Positions 4,629 to 38,899 of a stretch of 64,000 nt of DNA are shown piece after piece. Origin of the DNA: Pedobacter cryoconitis (lineage in GTDB: Bacteria; Bacteroidota; Bacteroidia; Sphingobacteriales; Sphingobacteriaceae); the NCBI RefSeq assembly GCF_014200605.1, contig NZ_JACHCE010000006.1, positions 248,001 through 312,000 of the forward strand. Direction: 5' to 3'. Made by a program: the position numbers and the translations under genes. Under the pieces are notes generated by a model. That model was not told where the DNA came from, searched no databases, and saw only the letters and a program-made list of their open reading frames with translations. The first letter of the stretch is position 1. Each line of letters begins with the position of its first letter.

Positions 4629-5632
4629 CAGGATTTATTAGTTATTTCGGCACTTTGAAAACTTGCCATCTCATTCAGAAAGTTTACCGCACTTTTTAAC
4701 AAAGGGTAAGCTAATGCACAACCTGTCCCTTCCCCCAGCCTGAGATGAAGTCCCAGCAATGGTTTTGCATCCAGGTATGACAACAAATAACGATGCCCTT
4801 TTTCTTCCGACTCATGGCAGAATACAGCGTTATTTTTTATACGCTGATCAATACCATAAGCACATAGATAAGCTACTGTTGCAATGAACCCATCTACCAT
4901 AATTATCATTTTTCTTTTTGCCGCAGCCAGCATGGCACCAGTCATTTCAAGCAACTCAAATCCACCAAAGTGTGCCATTAATTCATAAATATCACTGTCC
5001 CCTTTATAATTCGCAATTGCCTGTTCCAGTATTTGTTGCTTTTTAAGCAGCTGTATATCATTCAAACCTGTTCCTCTGCCTATACAATCAGCAATTGGCA
5101 AATCACAAAGTAAACTCATTAATACCGCAGCACTTGAAGTGTTACCTATCCCCATCTCTCCAAAACCAATTACATTACAGCCCTTTGCAGCAATTTCTAC
5201 TACAACTTCTTCGCCTTTTAACAAACAGAGCTTTGCCTGTGCTATAGTCATTGCCGGCCCATCCAGAAATGAAGCCGTGCCTTTAGCAATTTTTCCATCG
5301 CCTAATGGCAAGCCATCTTCAAAATCATAATTTACTCCCGCATCCACAACTTGAAGATTGATTGCATGCTGTCTGCAAAAAACATTAATAGCAGCCCCGC
5401 CGTTGAGGAAATTCAAAACCATTTGCCGGGTTACTTCCTGAGGAAAAGCACTCACCCCTTCGCGGGCAATTCCATGATCTGCTGCAAAAACTACCAGATG
5501 AGGATTGATTAATTGCGGATTTGTTGTTTCCAGTATTTCTCCTATCTGCAAAGCAAGATCTTCCAGCATACCTAAAGATCCGGGCGGTTTAGTTTTATTA
5601 TCAATTAATACTTTTAAATCTTCAGTGATCAT
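4628..5632 (-). CDS. cobT: Nicotinate-nucleotide--dimethylbenzimidazole phosphoribosyltransferase
   Basis: Makes alpha-ribazole 5'-phosphate from nicotinate mononucleotide and a lower-ligand base. The 334-aa length is typical. Visible signatures are KPPGSLGMLEDLA near the N-terminus, FAADHGIAREGVSAFP, GEMGIGNTSSAAVL, and the catalytic-Glu region LRLGEGTGCALAYPLL close to the C-terminus. It lies 35 bp after cobU and overlaps cobS by one base. No bluB is present in the window, so the base may be imported or made elsewhere. Confidence 0.96.
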   Translation of the reverse strand: MITEDLKVLIDNKTKPPGSLGMLEDLALQIGEILETTNPQLINPHLVVFAADHGIAREGVSAFPQEVTRQMVLNFLNGGAAINVFCRQHAINLQVVDAGVNYDFEDGLPLGDGKIAKGTASFLDGPAMTIAQAKLCLLKGEEVVVEIAAKGCNVIGFGEMGIGNTSSAAVLMSLLCDLPIADCIGRGTGLNDIQLLKKQQILEQAIANYKGDSDIYELMAHFGGFELLEMTGAMLAAAKRKMIIMVDGFIATVAYLCAYGIDQRIKNNAVFCHESEEKGHRYLLSYLDAKPLLGLHLRLGEGTGCALAYPLLKSAVNFLNEMASFQSAEITNKS

Positions 5633-5667
5633 ATCCTGCTATCAAATTAATACGCTATAATAAATTA

Positions 5668-6174
5668 TCATTTCTTCAGAAACAAAGGAAGTCCAGAGAC
5701 CATAAATATTGCTTCATCTGCTTTAGAAGCAGTATATTGATTGGCCCAGCCTTGCAAATCAACAAATTTCCTTCCTACAGGTGTATCTGCATGCAGCCCC
5801 ATTCCCAGCTCATTGGAAATAATGATAAAAGTACCTGGAATTTTGATAAGCTGATCTATCTCTTCTTTAAAATCAGCTAAAGCCAGTTCTATATCATTAT
5901 CCCTGTCCATAAAGAGATTTGTTAACCACAAGGTTACACAATCAATTACTACATAACGCCCCTGTATGGGTAAAAGATGAAGATGACGATAAGCCTCAAA
6001 ATTTGTCCACTCCGCCCCACGATCATGCTGATGTCTGATTACTCTTTCCTTGAAATCTTCGTCCCATATTTTGGCCGTAGCCACATAAACCGGATCATTA
6101 CAAAGCTCTTTCGCACGTTGCTGTGCATAACCACTTTTACCGCTTCTTACTCCCCCTGTGATAAAAATCAGCAT
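5668..6174 (-). CDS. cobU: Bifunctional adenosylcobinamide kinase / adenosylcobinamide-phosphate guanylyltransferase
   Basis: Phosphorylates adenosylcobinamide and transfers GMP to give adenosylcobinamide-GDP, the substrate of CobS. At 168 aa it is near the family norm of about 170-180. It has the P-loop GGVRSGKS (7-14), the HDRGAEW segment that contains the histidine used for guanylylation in this family, and the C-terminal signature GMGLHADTPVGRKFVDLQG followed by NQ. It starts 2 bp after the pduO stop. Confidence 0.95.
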   Translation of the reverse strand: MLIFITGGVRSGKSGYAQQRAKELCNDPVYVATAKIWDEDFKERVIRHQHDRGAEWTNFEAYRHLHLLPIQGRYVVIDCVTLWLTNLFMDRDNDIELALADFKEEIDQLIKIPGTFIIISNELGMGLHADTPVGRKFVDLQGWANQYTASKADEAIFMVSGLPLFLKK

Positions 6175-6176
6175 AT

Positions 6177-6770
6177 TTATGGCTTTACTACCGGATCTGC
6201 ATTTTTAAACCTTTTATAAAGAAACAACTGCCATTTCTCTTCTGCAACACCTGCTTTATCCATTTCTGCCCTTGAAAGGGTAAAAAATAAATCAGATAAA
6301 CGATTAATATATGCTGGTATGGTCTCATCCACTTCATCTGCCTTAATTAAACTGACCAATCTTCTTTCACCTCTGCGCATTTGTGTTCTTACCATATGGC
6401 AAAGTGCAGAAATTTCATTTCCGCCTGGCAGAATAAAGTAGTCAGAAGGATGGGTCATTGCATTTTCAAGTTCATCAATCCAGCTTTCGCAAAATACAGG
6501 GCCATCAACAGGCATCGGATTAGTATTAATCTTCACTGTATCAGAAGGACGTGCCAGGTGTGACATCATATCCATCAGATCTTTCTGAATTTTATGCAGG
6601 TTACTTTGCCATTCATGTGTATGTCCTAACTTCACCCTCAGCATCCCTATGGTAGAATTCACTTCATCGAGCGTACCGATACATTCTACCCGCACATCAT
6701 CCTTAGACACGCGTTTACCCCCAAAAAGACCTGTAGTTCCTTTATCTCCTTTTTTAGTATATATCTTCAT
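6177..6770 (-). CDS. pduO: PduO-type cob(I)alamin/cob(I)yrinic acid a,c-diamide adenosyltransferase
   Basis: Transfers the adenosyl group of ATP to the cobalt of a reduced corrinoid. The 197-aa protein begins with the ATP-binding motif MKIYTKKGDKGTTGLFGG and carries ECIGTLDEVNSTIG and the later MRRGERRL and YINRLSDLFF motifs of PF01923. An upstream frame to 6839 would add 23 residues unlike the family, so the ATG that gives MKIYT is chosen. It is 193 bp downstream of the TonB receptor gene. A strong hairpin lies in that gap, so the salvage genes may be expressed less than the transport genes. Confidence 0.93.
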   Translation of the reverse strand: MKIYTKKGDKGTTGLFGGKRVSKDDVRVECIGTLDEVNSTIGMLRVKLGHTHEWQSNLHKIQKDLMDMMSHLARPSDTVKINTNPMPVDGPVFCESWIDELENAMTHPSDYFILPGGNEISALCHMVRTQMRRGERRLVSLIKADEVDETIPAYINRLSDLFFTLSRAEMDKAGVAEEKWQLFLYKRFKNADPVVKP

Positions 6771-6902
6771 TTGAATAATTTTAAATAAGGCTTTACAGCC
6801 GATATTTTGGTTTGACCGGCAACAACACAATTTTAACAAATAAATTTAAAGGATGTTTAAATAGCAAGCTTAATATTCTCCGGTATAAACTGAACAAACG
6901 TA

Positions 6903-6940
6903 TATTGCCCCTCAAATACGCCTGAATTTGAGGGGCAATA
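6903..6940 (-). terminator. Intra-operon hairpin between btuB-like gene and pduO
   Basis: Two perfect 15-base arms (TATTGCCCCTCAAAT and its complement) enclose an 8-base loop. The position, just after the receptor stop codon, suggests a partial terminator or an RNA-stabilising 3' end. In the minus direction no clean U-run follows. Instead a TACGTTTG element (minus strand, 6902-6895) resembles a Bacteroidetes -7 box, but without a well-spaced -33 box. Confidence 0.6.
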
Positions 6941-6963
6941 CAACTAATATCCTTTCACATTTT

Positions 6964-9153
6964 TTAGAAACTAATATTATATCTCAGAGAGAAATTTCTT
7001 CCTGCAAGATTAAAACCACGTTTCTCATAGTAATTTTCGTCCGTGATGTTATTCATCAGGAAAGTAACTGTATGTCTTTTTTTATAAGTATAACTTGCTG
7101 CAAAATCAGCTACCATAAAATCAGGATAAACAATCTCAGGATATTTAGGATCATTAAAATCCGTATCCTTACGTTTACCTGCATACCTGGCACTTAATCT
7201 TAAGTCAAGCCCTTTCAGGTTATTAAATTCAAAACCATAACTGGAAGTAAAGTCTGGCACATTATAAATGTCCTTAACAGATTCACTACCGTCTGCTAAA
7301 ATAGTAACTTCTTTAGCTTTGGCCGATTTAGTCGCATTACCAAAAACTTTTAAAGAATAATTTTTTGCAGCTAATGTTCCGAAATCCCAGGCAAGCTCAG
7401 CTTCAAAACCATCAATATTTGCTTTATTAGCATTCACATATGTCATACGGGTGCCGATAGGAAAACCGCCCGGCGTAGTTTCTGTTGGAACAGGTACACT
7501 CGTTTTAGTCGTAATCCTATCTTTCACATAGGTATTATAATAAGTAAAATCGGCAGTCAGTCCCCATTCAGGTTTGCTGAATCTTAAGCCTGCATCCCAC
7601 GAGATACTGTTCTCATTTTTCAAATCCGGATTTCCCTGGATAACACTTGCTTTGCCATTAGTGATTTTTTCAGAGTAACCAGCTACATTATAAGCATCGG
7701 GTGTTACAAAGGCACGACCTGTGGTTGCATGTACAGTAAATAGCTTACTAATGGCATATTGAGCAGCTAAACTCGGACTAAAAAAAGGATTAGTCTTTTT
7801 ACCGCCAGTATAAGTAGTCAACAAAGGAGTCTGCATTACATTGTAAGTAATCAGATCTAAACGTACACCTGGATTAACAACCAGTTTATTATCCAGAAAG
7901 TTAAGTTGTCCCTGGATATACCCCGCAGCAGAAGAAAGGCTGTAATTAGGAGAATATGGAGCTGATTCAGAACCATCAGGATTAAACGATTGTGAACGTG
8001 TAGATGCGTAACTGTAATCTACACCGAAAATCAAGGTATGTTTACCCAGCTGGTAAGCATCTTTTGCCTGTATTCCCTTCCAGCTTGTAGAACTTTTATA
8101 AGAAGCATAAGGCGCAAGCAGACCATTCACAGAAAGCAGGGTATTGTTTAAATTGTTCTCTTGTGAGGTATATCCCTTTAAAGTTAAATGATGCTGATCT
8201 ACATCACCTGAAAGTGTAGCTTCTTCATTATGACGCTCAATATCTTTTGTACTTGGCTGTCCGTTTCCGTAAAATATATCGCTTGGCGATTCTACATTTT
8301 TTGCAGCAAAACGTTCGCCTCTTACATCAAGCCTCCAGTTTGCATCGAACTGGTAGCCCAATCTCAAACTTCCTGTATTGTAGTTAAGCTTTGTATAATC
8401 TCGTCTTAAGCCATCAGAACGCTTATCGTCCATTTCAACTGGTCCGTCAGTATAGTTATAAAGCGCAGTGTTGGCACCAAGCATTTTTCTAAACAGATTG
8501 CCCTTACCTAACTTCATATTTTTAGCCCTGTCGAAATTCAGGAAAGACAAATCGAAGTCTAGTTTTTTACTAATATTCCCACCAGCAGAAGCGCCCAGCT
8601 GTGTTGTTTCATAAGATCCATATTCTGCAAACACATTTCCATGAATGTCACCTGAGGATTTTTTAGTGATAATATTTACAACCCCACCCATTGCTGATGC
8701 ACCATATAAGGCAGAAGCAGGTCCTTTAAGCACTTCAATACGCTCAATATCAGAAGGATTAATCGTTGAAATACTTACCGTACCAGCCGGACGGCCATCA
8801 ACCAGTAAAAGCGACCGTTGGTTTAACCCGCTTGCCTGTGGCCTAAAGCCACGAATGCCAATACCAGAAGACAAGCCCGGGTATTGGATAATACTTACAG
8901 ATGAGTTTTTCTTTAAAAGATCAGTCACTTCCAGAGAGGGGGTCATATCTATTACCGCTTTAGTAATTACTGTCATACTCTGCGGTACATTACTTCTTTT
9001 AACTTCAGTTCTTGAAGAAGTGATAACCACTTCGTCCAGTGCATTAGTTCTAATAGAATCAGCTTTTTTTTCCTGTGCTATAGCCGGACAGCTGAGTAAA
9101 ACCGTACCTATGAGCAGGTTTTTAAATGATAATAAAGGTAAATTTTTATGCAT
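6964..9153 (-). CDS. btuB: TonB-dependent outer membrane receptor, BtuB-like
   Basis: Predicted outer-membrane channel for cobalamin or other corrinoids. The 729-aa protein has a signal peptide (cleavage after about residue 26, ending PAIAQ), a TonB-box-like DEVVITSS segment, a plug domain with SLLLVDGRPAGTVS and VLKGPASALYGASAMGG, and a beta-barrel ending in a C-terminal Phe (NISF). It lacks the N-terminal CarboxypepD_reg-like domain of SusC-type receptors. The corrinoid assignment rests on its place in the riboswitch operon, 42 bp behind the ABC ATPase gene. The receptor family is certain. Confidence 0.88.
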   Translation of the reverse strand: MHKNLPLLSFKNLLIGTVLLSCPAIAQEKKADSIRTNALDEVVITSSRTEVKRSNVPQSMTVITKAVIDMTPSLEVTDLLKKNSSVSIIQYPGLSSGIGIRGFRPQASGLNQRSLLLVDGRPAGTVSISTINPSDIERIEVLKGPASALYGASAMGGVVNIITKKSSGDIHGNVFAEYGSYETTQLGASAGGNISKKLDFDLSFLNFDRAKNMKLGKGNLFRKMLGANTALYNYTDGPVEMDDKRSDGLRRDYTKLNYNTGSLRLGYQFDANWRLDVRGERFAAKNVESPSDIFYGNGQPSTKDIERHNEEATLSGDVDQHHLTLKGYTSQENNLNNTLLSVNGLLAPYASYKSSTSWKGIQAKDAYQLGKHTLIFGVDYSYASTRSQSFNPDGSESAPYSPNYSLSSAAGYIQGQLNFLDNKLVVNPGVRLDLITYNVMQTPLLTTYTGGKKTNPFFSPSLAAQYAISKLFTVHATTGRAFVTPDAYNVAGYSEKITNGKASVIQGNPDLKNENSISWDAGLRFSKPEWGLTADFTYYNTYVKDRITTKTSVPVPTETTPGGFPIGTRMTYVNANKANIDGFEAELAWDFGTLAAKNYSLKVFGNATKSAKAKEVTILADGSESVKDIYNVPDFTSSYGFEFNNLKGLDLRLSARYAGKRKDTDFNDPKYPEIVYPDFMVADFAASYTYKKRHTVTFLMNNITDENYYEKRGFNLAGRNFSLRYNISF

Positions 9154-33695: not shown

Positions 33696-33775
33696 AATAG
33701 TCCTGGTTTTATTTGAATCCATAATTAACTATAAATAGTTAATCAAATTCGAAGCCAAGATTGTTAAAAAATAAA

Positions 33776-33806
33776 GAGCATCACTAATTCTGGATTAATG
33801 ATGCTC
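33776..33806 (-). terminator. Terminator behind the small peptide gene
   Basis: GAGCATCA and its complement enclose a further weak TAAT/ATTA pairing. In the minus direction the hairpin is followed by CTTTATTTTTTAAC, a U-rich tail. It lies 61 bp beyond the peptide stop codon, which supports real transcription of that small gene. Confidence 0.65.
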
Positions 33807-33867
33807 CTTTTTTAAGGATAATCTTATTAAAAGTAAAGGATAAGAATTAAATTCCTGTCAAATACGT

Positions 33868-34008
33868 CTAATTGAAGAAAGGAATAATTACAATAGTCTC
33901 AGGAGATATAGTAGCTTCAGGAAAGTCTAATACACTCTTTTTCACTGTTGGTATTTGATATAATGGAGTTAATTCTAACTTCAAAAGATTTTGTTTGATT
34001 TTTTTCAT
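33868..34008 (-). CDS. Small Cys-free leader-like peptide, candidate RiPP precursor for the LanB-type enzyme
   Basis: 46 residues, starting MKKIKQNLLKLEL and ending TIVIIPFFN. The start (Met, Lys-rich, then NL-x-KLEL) resembles the leaders of Bacteroidetes class I lanthipeptide precursors, and six Ser/Thr lie behind it (T14, T21, S25, T33, S35, T38). There is no Cys, so no lanthionine ring can form, and there is no GG cleavage site. It is divergent from the sensor kinase gene and has its own terminator. It could be a linear dehydropeptide precursor, or a signal peptide for the adjacent kinase. No homologue is known to me. Coding status rests on the leader-like start, the context and the terminator. 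Confidence 0.55.
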   Translation of the reverse strand: MKKIKQNLLKLELTPLYQIPTVKKSVLDFPEATISPETIVIIPFFN

Positions 34009-34126
34009 AACACTGCTGGGTTGATTTTCATCAATAGTAAGAGTATCTTCTCATAATGAAAAAGTTATTACACGAACTAACATAATATCGAGGTAAATAC
34101 ACATATAATCTCTTATATTTGAAATA

Positions 34127-35194
34127 ATGATTAACGCATTAAACTCAAAAAAGTTCAAATTTTACCGTGCCCATGTCTTTGTGTGGACACTATTTATAGC
34201 TTATGAGCTTCTTCTTATATTTTTGCTGCACCTGCATTCTTCTTCAATAATAGAGTATATTTATTACTATGCTCTTTACATCATTCTTTTTTATACAAAT
34301 TCATATGTAGTATGGCCACAAATATATAAAAAGCCAATATACATTGGGGCAATATTAATCTTGCTGGAGCTAATTGGTTATATGCTGCTTAGATATTTTT
34401 TTACCGGATTTTCTCTTGCTTTTAATGTTCCAACACTTTTGTCGTCTACAATCAATTTAGATTCAATTGCCAGAACTGTTTATCGGTTTCTTTACCTTTT
34501 CGGACTAAGTTCTGCTTATTGGTTCGCTTTAAACATTATTACTCAGAGAAAAGAGATCACTGATTTAGAAAAAAGCAAATTACTCTCCCAACTCCATCAC
34601 CAACAATTAGAGAAACAGCTTATAGATTCTGAAGTAGCCTATTTAAAATCACAGATCAATCCGCATTTCTTATTTAACACTTTAAATTTCCTGCATAATA
34701 CAGCTATTACAACAGCTCCGCAATTAACCAGGCCAATACTTTTATTATCTGATATTATGCGTTATGCATTAACTGAAATACCTCAAAATGGCAAAGTTGA
34801 ACTCTCAGATGAAATAGAACAGATCGCCTCTTTTATTGATTTAAATCAATTTAGGTTTGATCATAATTTACAGCTATCTTTCACCATTACAGGCAATACC
34901 GGTAATTTAAGAATACTTCCTTTAATCCTGCTAACACCTGTAGAAAATATTTTTAAATATGCTGATCTTAAAAATGTTGAACATCCAGTAAAAATTAATC
35001 TCGATATTAATGAAAACAAACTGCAATTTACTATCTACAATAGAAAAATAAGAACTAGAAAACCTATTCCAAGTCACGGTATAGGCCTTAAAAATTTAAA
35101 ACTGAGGCTTGATTCATATTATTCAGATGCCCATGAGATTCAAATAATAGAAACAGCAGATGATTATACGTTCAAGCTTCATATAACTTTATAA
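34127..35194 (+). CDS. LytS/YehU-type sensor histidine kinase
   Basis: 355 aa. The first 140 residues hold four membrane segments without a large extracytoplasmic domain. A coiled-coil linker (about 142-170) leads to a His_kinase domain (PF06580) with the phospho-accepting H180 in QINPHFLFNTLNFL and an ATPase part with LLTPVENIFKYA and HGIGLKNLKLRL. It is 5 bp ahead of the LytTR regulator gene. In the same neighbourhood are a small peptide gene and a LanB gene, so it may sense a peptide. Confidence 0.9.
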   Translation: MINALNSKKFKFYRAHVFVWTLFIAYELLLIFLLHLHSSSIIEYIYYYALYIILFYTNSYVVWPQIYKKPIYIGAILILLELIGYMLLRYFFTGFSLAFNVPTLLSSTINLDSIARTVYRFLYLFGLSSAYWFALNIITQRKEITDLEKSKLLSQLHHQQLEKQLIDSEVAYLKSQINPHFLFNTLNFLHNTAITTAPQLTRPILLLSDIMRYALTEIPQNGKVELSDEIEQIASFIDLNQFRFDHNLQLSFTITGNTGNLRILPLILLTPVENIFKYADLKNVEHPVKINLDINENKLQFTIYNRKIRTRKPIPSHGIGLKNLKLRLDSYYSDAHEIQIIETADDYTFKLHITL

Positions 35195-35199
35195 CCTTT

Positions 35200-35922
35200 A
35201 TGTATAAATGTTTTATAATAGATGATGAGTCACATGCCATCGAAACTTTAAAAAAATATGCAGCAGACAGTGCACATTTAGAGGTTATTTCCTCTTCGCA
35301 AAATCCACTTGAAGCCATTAAATATATTAATGAAAATAAAGATATAGATATTACCTTTCTTGATATTGATATGCCTGAAATGTCTGGCCTGGATGTAGCT
35401 GATTTAATTTACAAAAACACAGCCATTATCTTTACAACCGGTCATGCAGGTTATGCTGTACAGGGTTTCGAAAAAAATATTTCGGATTTCCTGCTAAAAC
35501 CTATTTCCTTTGAGAAATTTTTAAAATCAGTAACAAAGGTTATTGATAAAATAGAAGGGCAGAAACCACAAACCTTACCTAAAAATGAAAGTTATTTTTT
35601 CGTAAATCCAGGTATAAAGGGTAAAATGCTTAAAGTTAATTATGATGATGTAGAGTATATTGAAGGGTTAAACAACTATATTGTTATCCATACCCCTCAA
35701 AACAATCACATTATATACCTGACAATGAAGGAGATTGAGGCTGGATTGCCAACTATTAATTTTATCAGAATACATAAGTCCTATATCATCAATATTGATA
35801 AAGTAACGATGATGGAAGGGAACAAAATAATGATTGATAAAATGATTTTACCGATAGGTTCATCATTTAAAGACCAGCTTTTGAAAAAAGTAAATAGTAA
35901 TATAATTAAAACTCATCGTTAG
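35200..35922 (+). CDS. LytTR-family response regulator
   Basis: 240 aa. A receiver domain (about 1-115) has the acidic pair DDE at 8-10, the phospho-acceptor D55 in TFLDIDMPEMSG, and the Lys in LLKPISF. The C-terminal LytTR DNA-binding domain (about 135-235) includes DVEYIEGLNNYIVIHT and FIRIHKSYIINIDKV. It forms a two-gene operon with the LytS-type kinase, and its 3' end overlaps the convergent LanB gene by 17 bp. Likely targets are the peptide gene and the LanB gene on either side. Confidence 0.92.
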   Translation: MYKCFIIDDESHAIETLKKYAADSAHLEVISSSQNPLEAIKYINENKDIDITFLDIDMPEMSGLDVADLIYKNTAIIFTTGHAGYAVQGFEKNISDFLLKPISFEKFLKSVTKVIDKIEGQKPQTLPKNESYFFVNPGIKGKMLKVNYDDVEYIEGLNNYIVIHTPQNNHIIYLTMKEIEAGLPTINFIRIHKSYIINIDKVTMMEGNKIMIDKMILPIGSSFKDQLLKKVNSNIIKTHR

Positions 35923-38899
35923 TTGTATAATTAAGATAAGCCTGATGTTTTTTCATAAAGTGATAGGCAAGATATTCATAAGATCTTGGATCAGTTTCAA
36001 ATATTCTATTTATATGCATATGTATCAAACTTGAAATCAAATTATATTTATCAATAAGTTTCCAATTTGATATTTTTTCATGAAGTAAAATAAGTAATTG
36101 ATTAAAATAAGGATAAGCTTTATTCTTTCTCTGAACAGAAAATTGTTCATTTTCAATTAGTTCAGACTGAAAATTCCTGTATCTAAAATCCATCTTACGA
36201 ATAATCTCTTTATCACTATCATTAAATTCCGCTGAAAAACCGGCAAGGATAGAACCAAGAAATTCAATTCTTTCCTTTTTATCCTTAATTAAACACTTTA
36301 CCATGAACAGTGTAGAATGCACGGCAAAATTTAATTTGAATCTCACTTCCGACCCACCTGTCTGAATAGCATCAAGGATAAAATCACTATCCAAATAAAA
36401 CAATGATTCTATATCATCTATTAATTCTGCCGAATATCTTTCAAGTTCTCTTTGATATGTATCCATTAAAATCGCCTGTATTTTCCCGGATTGATGTAAT
36501 GGCTTTAACTTTGCACTTAGTTCAGTAAATAAATTTTGAGCTGATTCTTTCGCTGTAAAAAATCTTAACCTGATATGATGATCTGGATCATTATATCTAA
36601 TGAAAAACCATTTAAATTCTGGGTTGTTCTCTTTATATTTACGGATAATCGGTAAAATATGATGAATCAGGATACTATCCATGAATGAATTATGTGCATA
36701 TAGCTTAAAGTACAGCCACTCATCTCCCAAAAAAAATGAGCGCTTGACTTTTAACTTTTTAGTATTCCCTATTATACCTGATATAGAGTCAGGCAGAGCA
36801 TATGATTTAGATTTATTTACCACACATGCTATGAATTGGCTTGCGTAAGGTCTTTTCTCAAAATCATGCAAGTCTGCATACTTAGGAAAAACATATTCCC
36901 TTAGCGTTATTGATTTCTTATTTCTGATACATCTCTTAAACATATCGATATCATCTGTACTGGCTGTGTTAAAAACAAGAAAATTATCCCTTTCATACCA
37001 GCTAAAATAAACAGGCAATAGTAGCTCTTGTTGCACATCCTTAAAATTCCCTTCTACTATTCTCTTAATTTTAGTCTCATCAAGAATCCATCTCGCAGCA
37101 GACAAGACAGCTTTGTCAAGTTGTACACGTGGATAATAATCCAAACCTGGAAAAAATTGTTCCAAAGAAAAGCCCAAATTGGTTTTAATTCCCTGGTGCT
37201 GTAAATCGCAGAGAAACCTAAAAGCAGGAATAGTTGTCAGTTGAACATTATAAACTGAGGAAAGTCTTGGTATCACGTATTTATTGAGTTTAACTGACCT
37301 CAACATAATAGTATTCCCATTCATAGAAATCATTAGATCATTTAATTTGATCGTACTTTCTTCAGAACGGGCTGAATGTGTCAGTATAGGTATTTCATAA
37401 GGATAAAAATGCCCTCTTTGTTTTATATTTGAAGCTTTATTAGGGGGTGAAAAAGAAATTTCAGCAAAAATAAAATCATTATTTACAGCCATTTCCTGTT
37501 CACAGATATTCTTAAGCTGTTTTTCAATTAACCCATTAGGAGCACCAAATCTCGCTCCTAATTCTATACCTGATGCACCACTAATCTGATCTATCCACAA
37601 TTCCTGATCAACATTTTTATATAAAATAGACATCCCGGGCGGTAACATAGATTTACTTTCAGGTAGTGAATTAATATCTTCAGGGGTAAGTATAATTTTG
37701 TCTGATCCTGATTTAGAAAGATTAGTCCATTTCTTAAAAATCATCTTTTCTGCCTCTCCCCATTTCATTCTGCTTTCTGGCTCCTGAGGTTTTCTCAAAT
37801 CATCTATAAATCCATTATTCTGATTATCAAAAGCAGCTGTTAAATTATCATATCCAATGCCAATTCCCGGATCCATTACCTCCATTAATGGAACTTCACG
37901 TCTTTCATATTTCTTTTTAAAGGCTATCTTAAATTCTTTCATTACCTCCCCGCTCCTATCAACTGTCAATTTATCCAGACTTTTGATCAATGAAATAAAT
38001 TCAGGATGCACTTCACTATTTAATCCTCCTGTAACTTCACGCTGGTACAAACTATAAGGGGGCCTGTACTCATTCCTTCCACTAATTTCTTCAATGTGTG
38101 CAAGAATTGAAGACAATGCATCACTTTGATCATTAATCGGGGCAGAAAATGTTTTTAAGGCATCAAGATTAAGATTAGGGTATTCTTTCAATACAGTCAG
38201 GCATCGTTCATTATATAATACGCCAGTAACATTAGGCATCAGTTCCGAAACAATTACTTGCCCTTTTACCAAATGATTAAAATAATCTTCCGCACCAGCA
38301 TCCTCTCCATATTGTTTGACCAGGTAATTAAGGATAGCACCTTTTGTTTGTCCCTGATCAATAAACCTCAATAGTTTCTTTAAACCAGGAATTACTTTTA
38401 AATGTACAATAACATGTTTATCCTGCTCAGAATATGCCTGACTGACAAAATACAACTCTCCTGCCGTAGTGTACATAGAGTTATTCGTATAATATCGGAC
38501 ATTCGACAATTCTTCTAATTTTAATGTATCAATATAGTTAAGAATTGATACAAAATCAGGAATTGCAGTCAGCTGTCCTTTACCATTTAAACGTAGTGGA
38601 TTTTCTTGCTGGAAGGTCCATCCTGCAAGAGAAAACGATGAAAAGAGACCATATGGCAATGGCCGGAAGCACATTCGGTTCAGATACTTCCACAGCGTTA
38701 TTTTAGCATGCTCATCCAATTGATCATAATCAAAACACTTTTTTTTAAGCTCCAGATATAATGTCTGACTTGCAAAAAACAAACTCGCTTTGAAGAAGTC
38801 TGTTTTTAATACTTTTTGTAAAAACAATAAACTAAAATTCTGGTAACTATAAGCAGGTGATCGGACAAGTAAAAATGAGTCAACAGCAAAATCTGGCAT
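35906..38899 (-). CDS. LanB-type lantibiotic dehydratase, full length
   Basis: 997 aa from the ATG giving MPDFAVDSF. An N-terminal glutamylation domain (Lant_dehydr_N, about 40-690) shows RPLPYGLFSSFSLAGW and YYPRVQLDKAVL. A C-terminal glutamate-elimination domain (SpaB_C type, about 725-990) shows DEWLYFKLYAHN and IRYNDPDHHIRLRF. Such enzymes dehydrate Ser and Thr in a leader-guided peptide by using glutamyl-tRNA. Both domains are in one chain, as in class I lanthipeptide LanB rather than the split thiopeptide type. No LanC cyclase, LanT exporter or protease gene is adjacent. The nearest candidate substrate is the 46-residue peptide, about 1.9 kb downstream of this gene beyond the two-component pair. 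Confidence 0.9.
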   Translation of the reverse strand: MPDFAVDSFLLVRSPAYSYQNFSLLFLQKVLKTDFFKASLFFASQTLYLELKKKCFDYDQLDEHAKITLWKYLNRMCFRPLPYGLFSSFSLAGWTFQQENPLRLNGKGQLTAIPDFVSILNYIDTLKLEELSNVRYYTNNSMYTTAGELYFVSQAYSEQDKHVIVHLKVIPGLKKLLRFIDQGQTKGAILNYLVKQYGEDAGAEDYFNHLVKGQVIVSELMPNVTGVLYNERCLTVLKEYPNLNLDALKTFSAPINDQSDALSSILAHIEEISGRNEYRPPYSLYQREVTGGLNSEVHPEFISLIKSLDKLTVDRSGEVMKEFKIAFKKKYERREVPLMEVMDPGIGIGYDNLTAAFDNQNNGFIDDLRKPQEPESRMKWGEAEKMIFKKWTNLSKSGSDKIILTPEDINSLPESKSMLPPGMSILYKNVDQELWIDQISGASGIELGARFGAPNGLIEKQLKNICEQEMAVNNDFIFAEISFSPPNKASNIKQRGHFYPYEIPILTHSARSEESTIKLNDLMISMNGNTIMLRSVKLNKYVIPRLSSVYNVQLTTIPAFRFLCDLQHQGIKTNLGFSLEQFFPGLDYYPRVQLDKAVLSAARWILDETKIKRIVEGNFKDVQQELLLPVYFSWYERDNFLVFNTASTDDIDMFKRCIRNKKSITLREYVFPKYADLHDFEKRPYASQFIACVVNKSKSYALPDSISGIIGNTKKLKVKRSFFLGDEWLYFKLYAHNSFMDSILIHHILPIIRKYKENNPEFKWFFIRYNDPDHHIRLRFFTAKESAQNLFTELSAKLKPLHQSGKIQAILMDTYQRELERYSAELIDDIESLFYLDSDFILDAIQTGGSEVRFKLNFAVHSTLFMVKCLIKDKKERIEFLGSILAGFSAEFNDSDKEIIRKMDFRYRNFQSELIENEQFSVQRKNKAYPYFNQLLILLHEKISNWKLIDKYNLISSLIHMHINRIFETDPRSYEYLAYHFMKKHQAYLNYTTNDEF

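Follow-up and report, generated by a model that had tools for sequence, protein, structure and literature searches.

The window analyzed here, a stretch of 64,000 nucleotides (C6:248001-312000) from the 6.2-Mb genome of the soil bacterium Pedobacter, contains a block of four genes encoding a small peptide devoid of Cys, a LytS-type membrane histidine kinase, a LytTR-family response regulator, and a full-length LanB dehydratase. Judging from sequence and gene context, these four genes are likely to constitute one RiPP-like module, in which a leader would guide the dehydration of Ser and Thr residues without formation of lanthionine, the whole being under the control of the sensor pair. The product of this module would probably be a dehydrated, ring-free peptide with a function in signaling or defense.

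Gene content and genomic context

The features of the block and its surroundings are:

33868..34008, minus strand: Cys-free precursor peptide of 46 amino acids, with a conserved leader (MKK...LKLELTPxYQ) and a variable C-terminal core containing 4 Ser/Thr
34127..35194, plus strand: membrane histidine kinase of the LytS type (PF06580), its sensor domain evolving fast
35200..35922, plus strand: LytTR-family response regulator (PF00072 + PF04397), whose 3' end overlaps the 3' end of the LanB gene
35906..38899, minus strand: full-length LanB dehydratase of 997 amino acids, with glutamylation and elimination domains and intact catalytic residues
34060..34077, minus strand: conserved element GTTCGTGTAATAACTTTT, situated about 50 bp upstream of the ATG of the peptide gene, a candidate regulator site
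34114..34121, plus strand: Bacteroidota -7-like box TATATTTG, 5 bp before the ATG of the kinase gene, kept in 12 of 12 relatives
33773..33809, minus strand: strong intrinsic terminator 3' of the peptide gene, with a 16-bp stem and a U-rich tail

Kinase and regulator genes lie tail-to-tail with the LanB gene, and the peptide gene diverges from the kinase gene, with which it has a common upstream region. The block consists of the peptide, the kinase, the regulator, and one fused LanB, and nothing else; it comprises no gene for LanC, a C39 transporter, a protease, or any exporter, and neither a split LanB nor a separate [4+2] cyclase. The original prediction of a full-length LanB of 997 residues lacking LanC, transporter, and protease neighbors, accompanied by a 46-residue peptide with six Ser/Thr and no Cys, is thus borne out by Pfam and NCBIfam matches as well as by the open reading frame and its translation. 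The LytS-type kinase and the LytTR regulator situated between peptide and LanB had not been mentioned there.

The flanks of the block are of the housekeeping type: it is bordered at one end by a suf operon with a SufR-like regulator and at the other by a gene for a SYLF-domain (Ysc84) protein. A C39 flag among the neighbors in clade A (12 Pedobacter genomes that encode an ortholog of this LanB) was judged to stem from SufC of this operon, matched through the ABC domain present in the reference LanT (LanT label at 25%), and was discarded. In genome G095 (locus L053, LanB at 4976-8002), a gene for a 733-residue ABC-permease-like protein is located between the LanB gene and the SufR-like gene.

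The small peptide is encoded by a conserved gene

The window peptide, MKKIKQNLLKLELTPLYQIPTVKKSVLDFPEATISPETIVIIPFFN, comprises 46 residues, six of them Ser/Thr and none Cys, and gives no match to Pfam or NCBIfam. A Cys-free 46-mer alone is unremarkable, because at the local Cys frequency the chance of finding no Cys in 48 residues is about 0.63. A peptide of 46-57 residues is encoded at the same position in each of the 12 Pedobacter genomes whose LanB is an ortholog (at least 51% identity), and of all intergenic small ORFs near LanB it is the only one common to all 12; the other shared ORFs lie for the most part antisense inside suf genes or are found in fewer than 12 loci, and no Cys-containing precursor is conserved near LanB as an alternative partner. 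In the 12 clade-A peptides, M1, K2, L9, K10, and P15 are invariant, so that the leader (LKLELTPVYQ), with the leader-like start noticed originally, is conserved, and the core is variable; that of the window peptide has the fewest Ser/Thr (4) of its family. Among four relatives without gaps, those pairs for which dS is computable give dN/dS values of about 0.13-0.25, and substitutions in the core, too, fall mainly at third codon positions. The terminator with its 16-bp stem behind the gene has a z score of -5.6. Conservation in 12 species, purifying selection, and a terminator of its own therefore identify the peptide gene as real. Cys is lacking in 11 of the 12 clade-A peptides and occurs once in the remaining one, and alignments contain no conserved Cys position.

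Inheritance of the four genes as one unit

A profile of the peptide identifies exactly 12 of 145 genomes at E <= 3.3e-16; the next best match has an E value of 5.5e-4, and matches at 5e-4 and above in other genomes were taken as noise. These are the 12 genomes with the clade-A LanB, encoded about 2 kb from the peptide, and both LanB and peptide family are absent from the other 133. Peptide homologs without LanB, which would have spoken against the suspected link between peptide and enzyme, were not encountered among the 145 genomes, and the link has gained support. The order peptide-kinase-regulator-LanB is preserved in all 12, and kinase orthologs (at least 53% identity) are restricted to the same genomes, the next best kinase reaching 38%. 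At loci L163 and L164, from two Pedobacter outside the clade, the SufR-like gene is found directly beside the SYLF gene and all four block genes are missing; from this exact empty site in close relatives we conclude that the four genes are gained and lost together as a block. As the 12 genomes form one lineage, co-occurrence within clade A counts as few independent events. Pairwise divergences of peptide and LanB are correlated no more strongly than is the case for flanking genes, and for this reason no peptide-LanB co-evolution is claimed from divergence.

The LanB enzyme

LanB comprises 997 residues when read from its ATG, or 1000 from an upstream TTG, and matches Lant_dehydr_N (E 5.6e-73) and Lant_dehydr_C (E 3e-53) of Pfam as well as TIGR03891 (E 2.3e-46) of NCBIfam. 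Residues equivalent to those on which NisB and MadB depend for both glutamylation and elimination (PMC4341554, PMC12241602), i.e., R13, Y72, R75, R79, R450, R768, H775, R777, R779, E818, H960, N964, and R965, are invariant in 30 aligned LanBs. An AlphaFold2 model (mean pLDDT 83) has MadB and NisB as its best structural matches over the whole length. With the residues for both half-reactions kept, the window LanB should be functional as a dehydratase.

All clade-A LanBs carry Leu at the position of the active-site Thr of NisB and MadB (NisB T89); the NisB variant T89A retains most activity and still dehydrates 5-7 times (PMC4341554). The loss of this Thr, together with the fact that the known LanC-less LanB relatives with Cys-free precursors are short, ligating LanBs (PMC11002830), might indicate that the enzyme goes no further than glutamylation or, like a PEARL, attaches an amino acid to the peptide, an explanation that we regard as highly improbable given a complete elimination domain and invariant catalytic residues. 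Dehydration of the peptide by LanB is the reading that we prefer.

Might rings nevertheless be closed in trans, by an unclustered LanC or with the Cys of another molecule, to give a class I lanthipeptide? Four LanC genes do exist elsewhere in the own genome, all on other contigs, as a search proposed earlier now reveals; a few family peptides have a Cys; and, according to the title of a paper cited by PMC11002830, LanC-like proteins are able to add outside thiols. However, of the 114 Pedobacter genomes that encode a LanB, 63 are devoid of LanC, a count obtained by intersecting two lists by hand, and these include one with a clade-A block (G139) and eight with clade-B LanBs. The peptides have no Cys at any conserved position, and in the phylogenetic tree LanBs associated with LanC are separate from clades A, B, and C, with L052 forming a long branch of its own. 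Ring closure in trans is accordingly very unlikely, and a ring-free product is favored because the peptide has no Cys and the block no LanC. Loci L084 and L078 possess LanB and kinase/regulator genes, and no LanC was found there, yet they fall inside an otherwise LanC-associated clade; the peptide of L078 contains a single, C-terminal Cys.

Related loci in other clades and genera

The set of four genes, with Thr-rich peptides that are mostly Cys-free, is found again in two further LanB clades (B and C), in other genera of the family, and on Hymenobacter plasmids. Clade B LanBs have about 1005 residues and are about 28% identical to the window LanB. Gene order matches that of clade A in 13 of 14 loci, and a peptide is present in all 14, Cys-free in 13; the shared core approximates D(T/S)DTTTxxTTIxSSTHIF. 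Clade C LanBs are of about 932 residues, and one is also encoded on contig C12 of the own genome; here, one or several tandem Cys-free peptides are encoded between regulator and kinase. In the tandem arrays of 5-7 copies (L133, L134, L140, L142, and L144), leaders differ and cores are identical or nearly so within an array, for example in L133 and L134. The locus on C12 (L051:5805-5939) represents a second Cys-free module in the own genome, consisting of a regulator, the peptide MSLIKKKLTLTKKTLFLYQKKSSGPPTVVSGDPTMTTGGSSNWP, a kinase, and a LanB of 935 residues.

In other genera of the Sphingobacteriaceae, a candidate peptide occurs in 15 of 20 loci, with cores such as GDPTNTTITVLTTVSG. The filter by which candidates from clade C and the other genera were picked asked for a Lys-rich start and a Ser/Thr-rich end and ignored Cys content; L113-L115, L117, L131, and L151 yielded none under it. 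Two Hymenobacter plasmids (L158 and L159) encode LanB, a LytTR regulator, and a kinase together with an unannotated Cys-free candidate ORF, L159 also having a LanC-family gene downstream, and a Spirosoma plasmid locus (L160) had no clear candidate peptide. Among 63 representative peptides, from which L148 (two Cys) and L146 were excluded, 56 are Cys-free and seven have Cys. In the C-terminal halves of the peptides, 27-41% of the residues are Ser/Thr, vs 12% in background proteins, a measure that is biased for the filtered candidates because the filter chose Ser/Thr-rich ends. Precursors beside the LanC-associated LanBs L048, L083, L085, and L086 contain 3-7 Cys and a GG site.

Contig C1 of the own genome encodes at L050 (6929-7087 and 12458-12619) two Cys-free peptides ending in ...ETLMTSSSS.VSNII, despite a LanC-like gene at this locus, which also has kinase, regulator, and LanB genes. 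Four tandem, near-identical peptides of 49 residues (L050:54-805; ...NQLEGG...YVVVSW) resemble RiPP precursors.

The recurrence of these loci bears on the idea that the peptide serves solely as a signal or regulatory peptide for LytS/LytTR, LanB modifying a substrate encoded elsewhere. Divergence from the kinase gene across a common upstream region and the poverty of the window core in Ser/Thr would be in line with this. In contrast, LanB belongs to the same inserted block, the LanBs of clades A, B, and C each adjoin their own peptide family, no other conserved small ORF is nearby, and in the clade-B locus L076, which lacks both kinase and regulator, LanB is immediately followed by two copies of the peptide gene. 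We thus consider a role in signaling alone unlikely, although less so than the two alternatives discussed for the enzyme, and retain the peptide as probable substrate of LanB.

Upstream elements and the sensor pair

In the relatives, an 18-bp element precedes the ATG of the peptide gene by about 50 bp, and similar elements precede the peptide genes of clades B and C. Elsewhere in the genome, a search for the element gave no excess over the reversed control, so that no wider regulon can be read from it. The sequence TATATTTG, presumably a Bacteroidota -7-like box, is in the relatives separated from the start codon of the kinase gene by only 5 bp (34114-34127 in the window), which suggests a leaderless kinase mRNA.

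Identity is 0.50 for the sensor half of the kinase vs 0.77 for its kinase half and 0.87 for the regulator. Low conservation of the sensor fits the tracking of a changing ligand, but is common in membrane sensors generally. Plausibly, the kinase detects the product of the module or its effect.

Proposed pathway and significance

In the proposed pathway, the LytS/LytTR pair would control transcription of the peptide gene. LanB would bind the conserved leader LKLELTPxYQ, glutamylate Ser and Thr of the core at the expense of glutamyl-tRNA, and eliminate glutamate to generate Dha and Dhb. The predicted product is a linear peptide with electrophilic dehydro-residues and free of lanthionine rings. 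Maturation and export might be carried out by unclustered functions, leader removal and export being either encoded outside the block or absent, and the fast-evolving sensor of the kinase may perceive the product or its effect. More tentatively, and in our estimation with less than even chances, a ring-free, dehydrobutyrine-bearing peptide signal sensed by its own LytS kinase could represent a widespread mode of signaling in Bacteroidota and a class of RiPPs separate from the lanthipeptides.

LanC-anchored mining has uncovered class I lanthipeptides with Cys in Bacteroidota. To a large survey anchored on LanC (PMC7268733) the present loci are invisible, and for the peptides no Pfam or NCBIfam model exists. 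Literature on LanB/LytTR in Bacteroidetes or Pedobacter, on Cys-free LanB substrates, and on dehydropeptides contained no description of this quartet and, as far as it was searched, none of a cell-to-cell signaling route of this kind for Bacteroidota. If LanB dehydrates these peptides, full-length LanBs gain a second role beyond ring formation, the peptides would be natural substrates for a cyclase-independent dehydratase, and a family of linear, Dha/Dhb-bearing peptides would extend across the Sphingobacteriaceae and beyond. The linked LytS/LytTR pair makes peptide signaling in Bacteroidota directly testable.

Comparison with known systems

LytTR-dependent peptide pheromone systems (Agr, Com) combine a small variable peptide, a membrane kinase with a divergent sensor, and a LytTR regulator, and at the present locus a membrane kinase and a LytTR regulator are likewise linked to a small peptide gene. 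The module differs in having LanB instead of a processing/export protein, and its export and kinase activation are putative. Short-LanB systems without LanC or Cys have been described as pearlins and pyritides (PMC11002830). With pearlins and their PEARLs, the module shares a LanB homolog, a Cys-free precursor, and the lack of LanC; in contrast, its LanB is full-length with an elimination domain (Lant_dehydr_C), and no tailoring enzymes are encoded in the block. LanB-type dehydration is shared with pyritides and thiopeptides, and pyritides do not need Cys either, but both employ split LanBs and a [4+2] cyclase, neither of which is present in the block. Class I lanthipeptides, such as nisin, the pinensins, or PedA15 of Pedobacter lusitanus, have in common with the module a full-length two-domain LanB and a small precursor with an N-terminal leader, which is of the LxLxK type as in LanAs of Bacteroidota. 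Unlike them, the module is devoid of core Cys, LanC, GG site, and C39 transporter, and has a dedicated LytS/LytTR pair.
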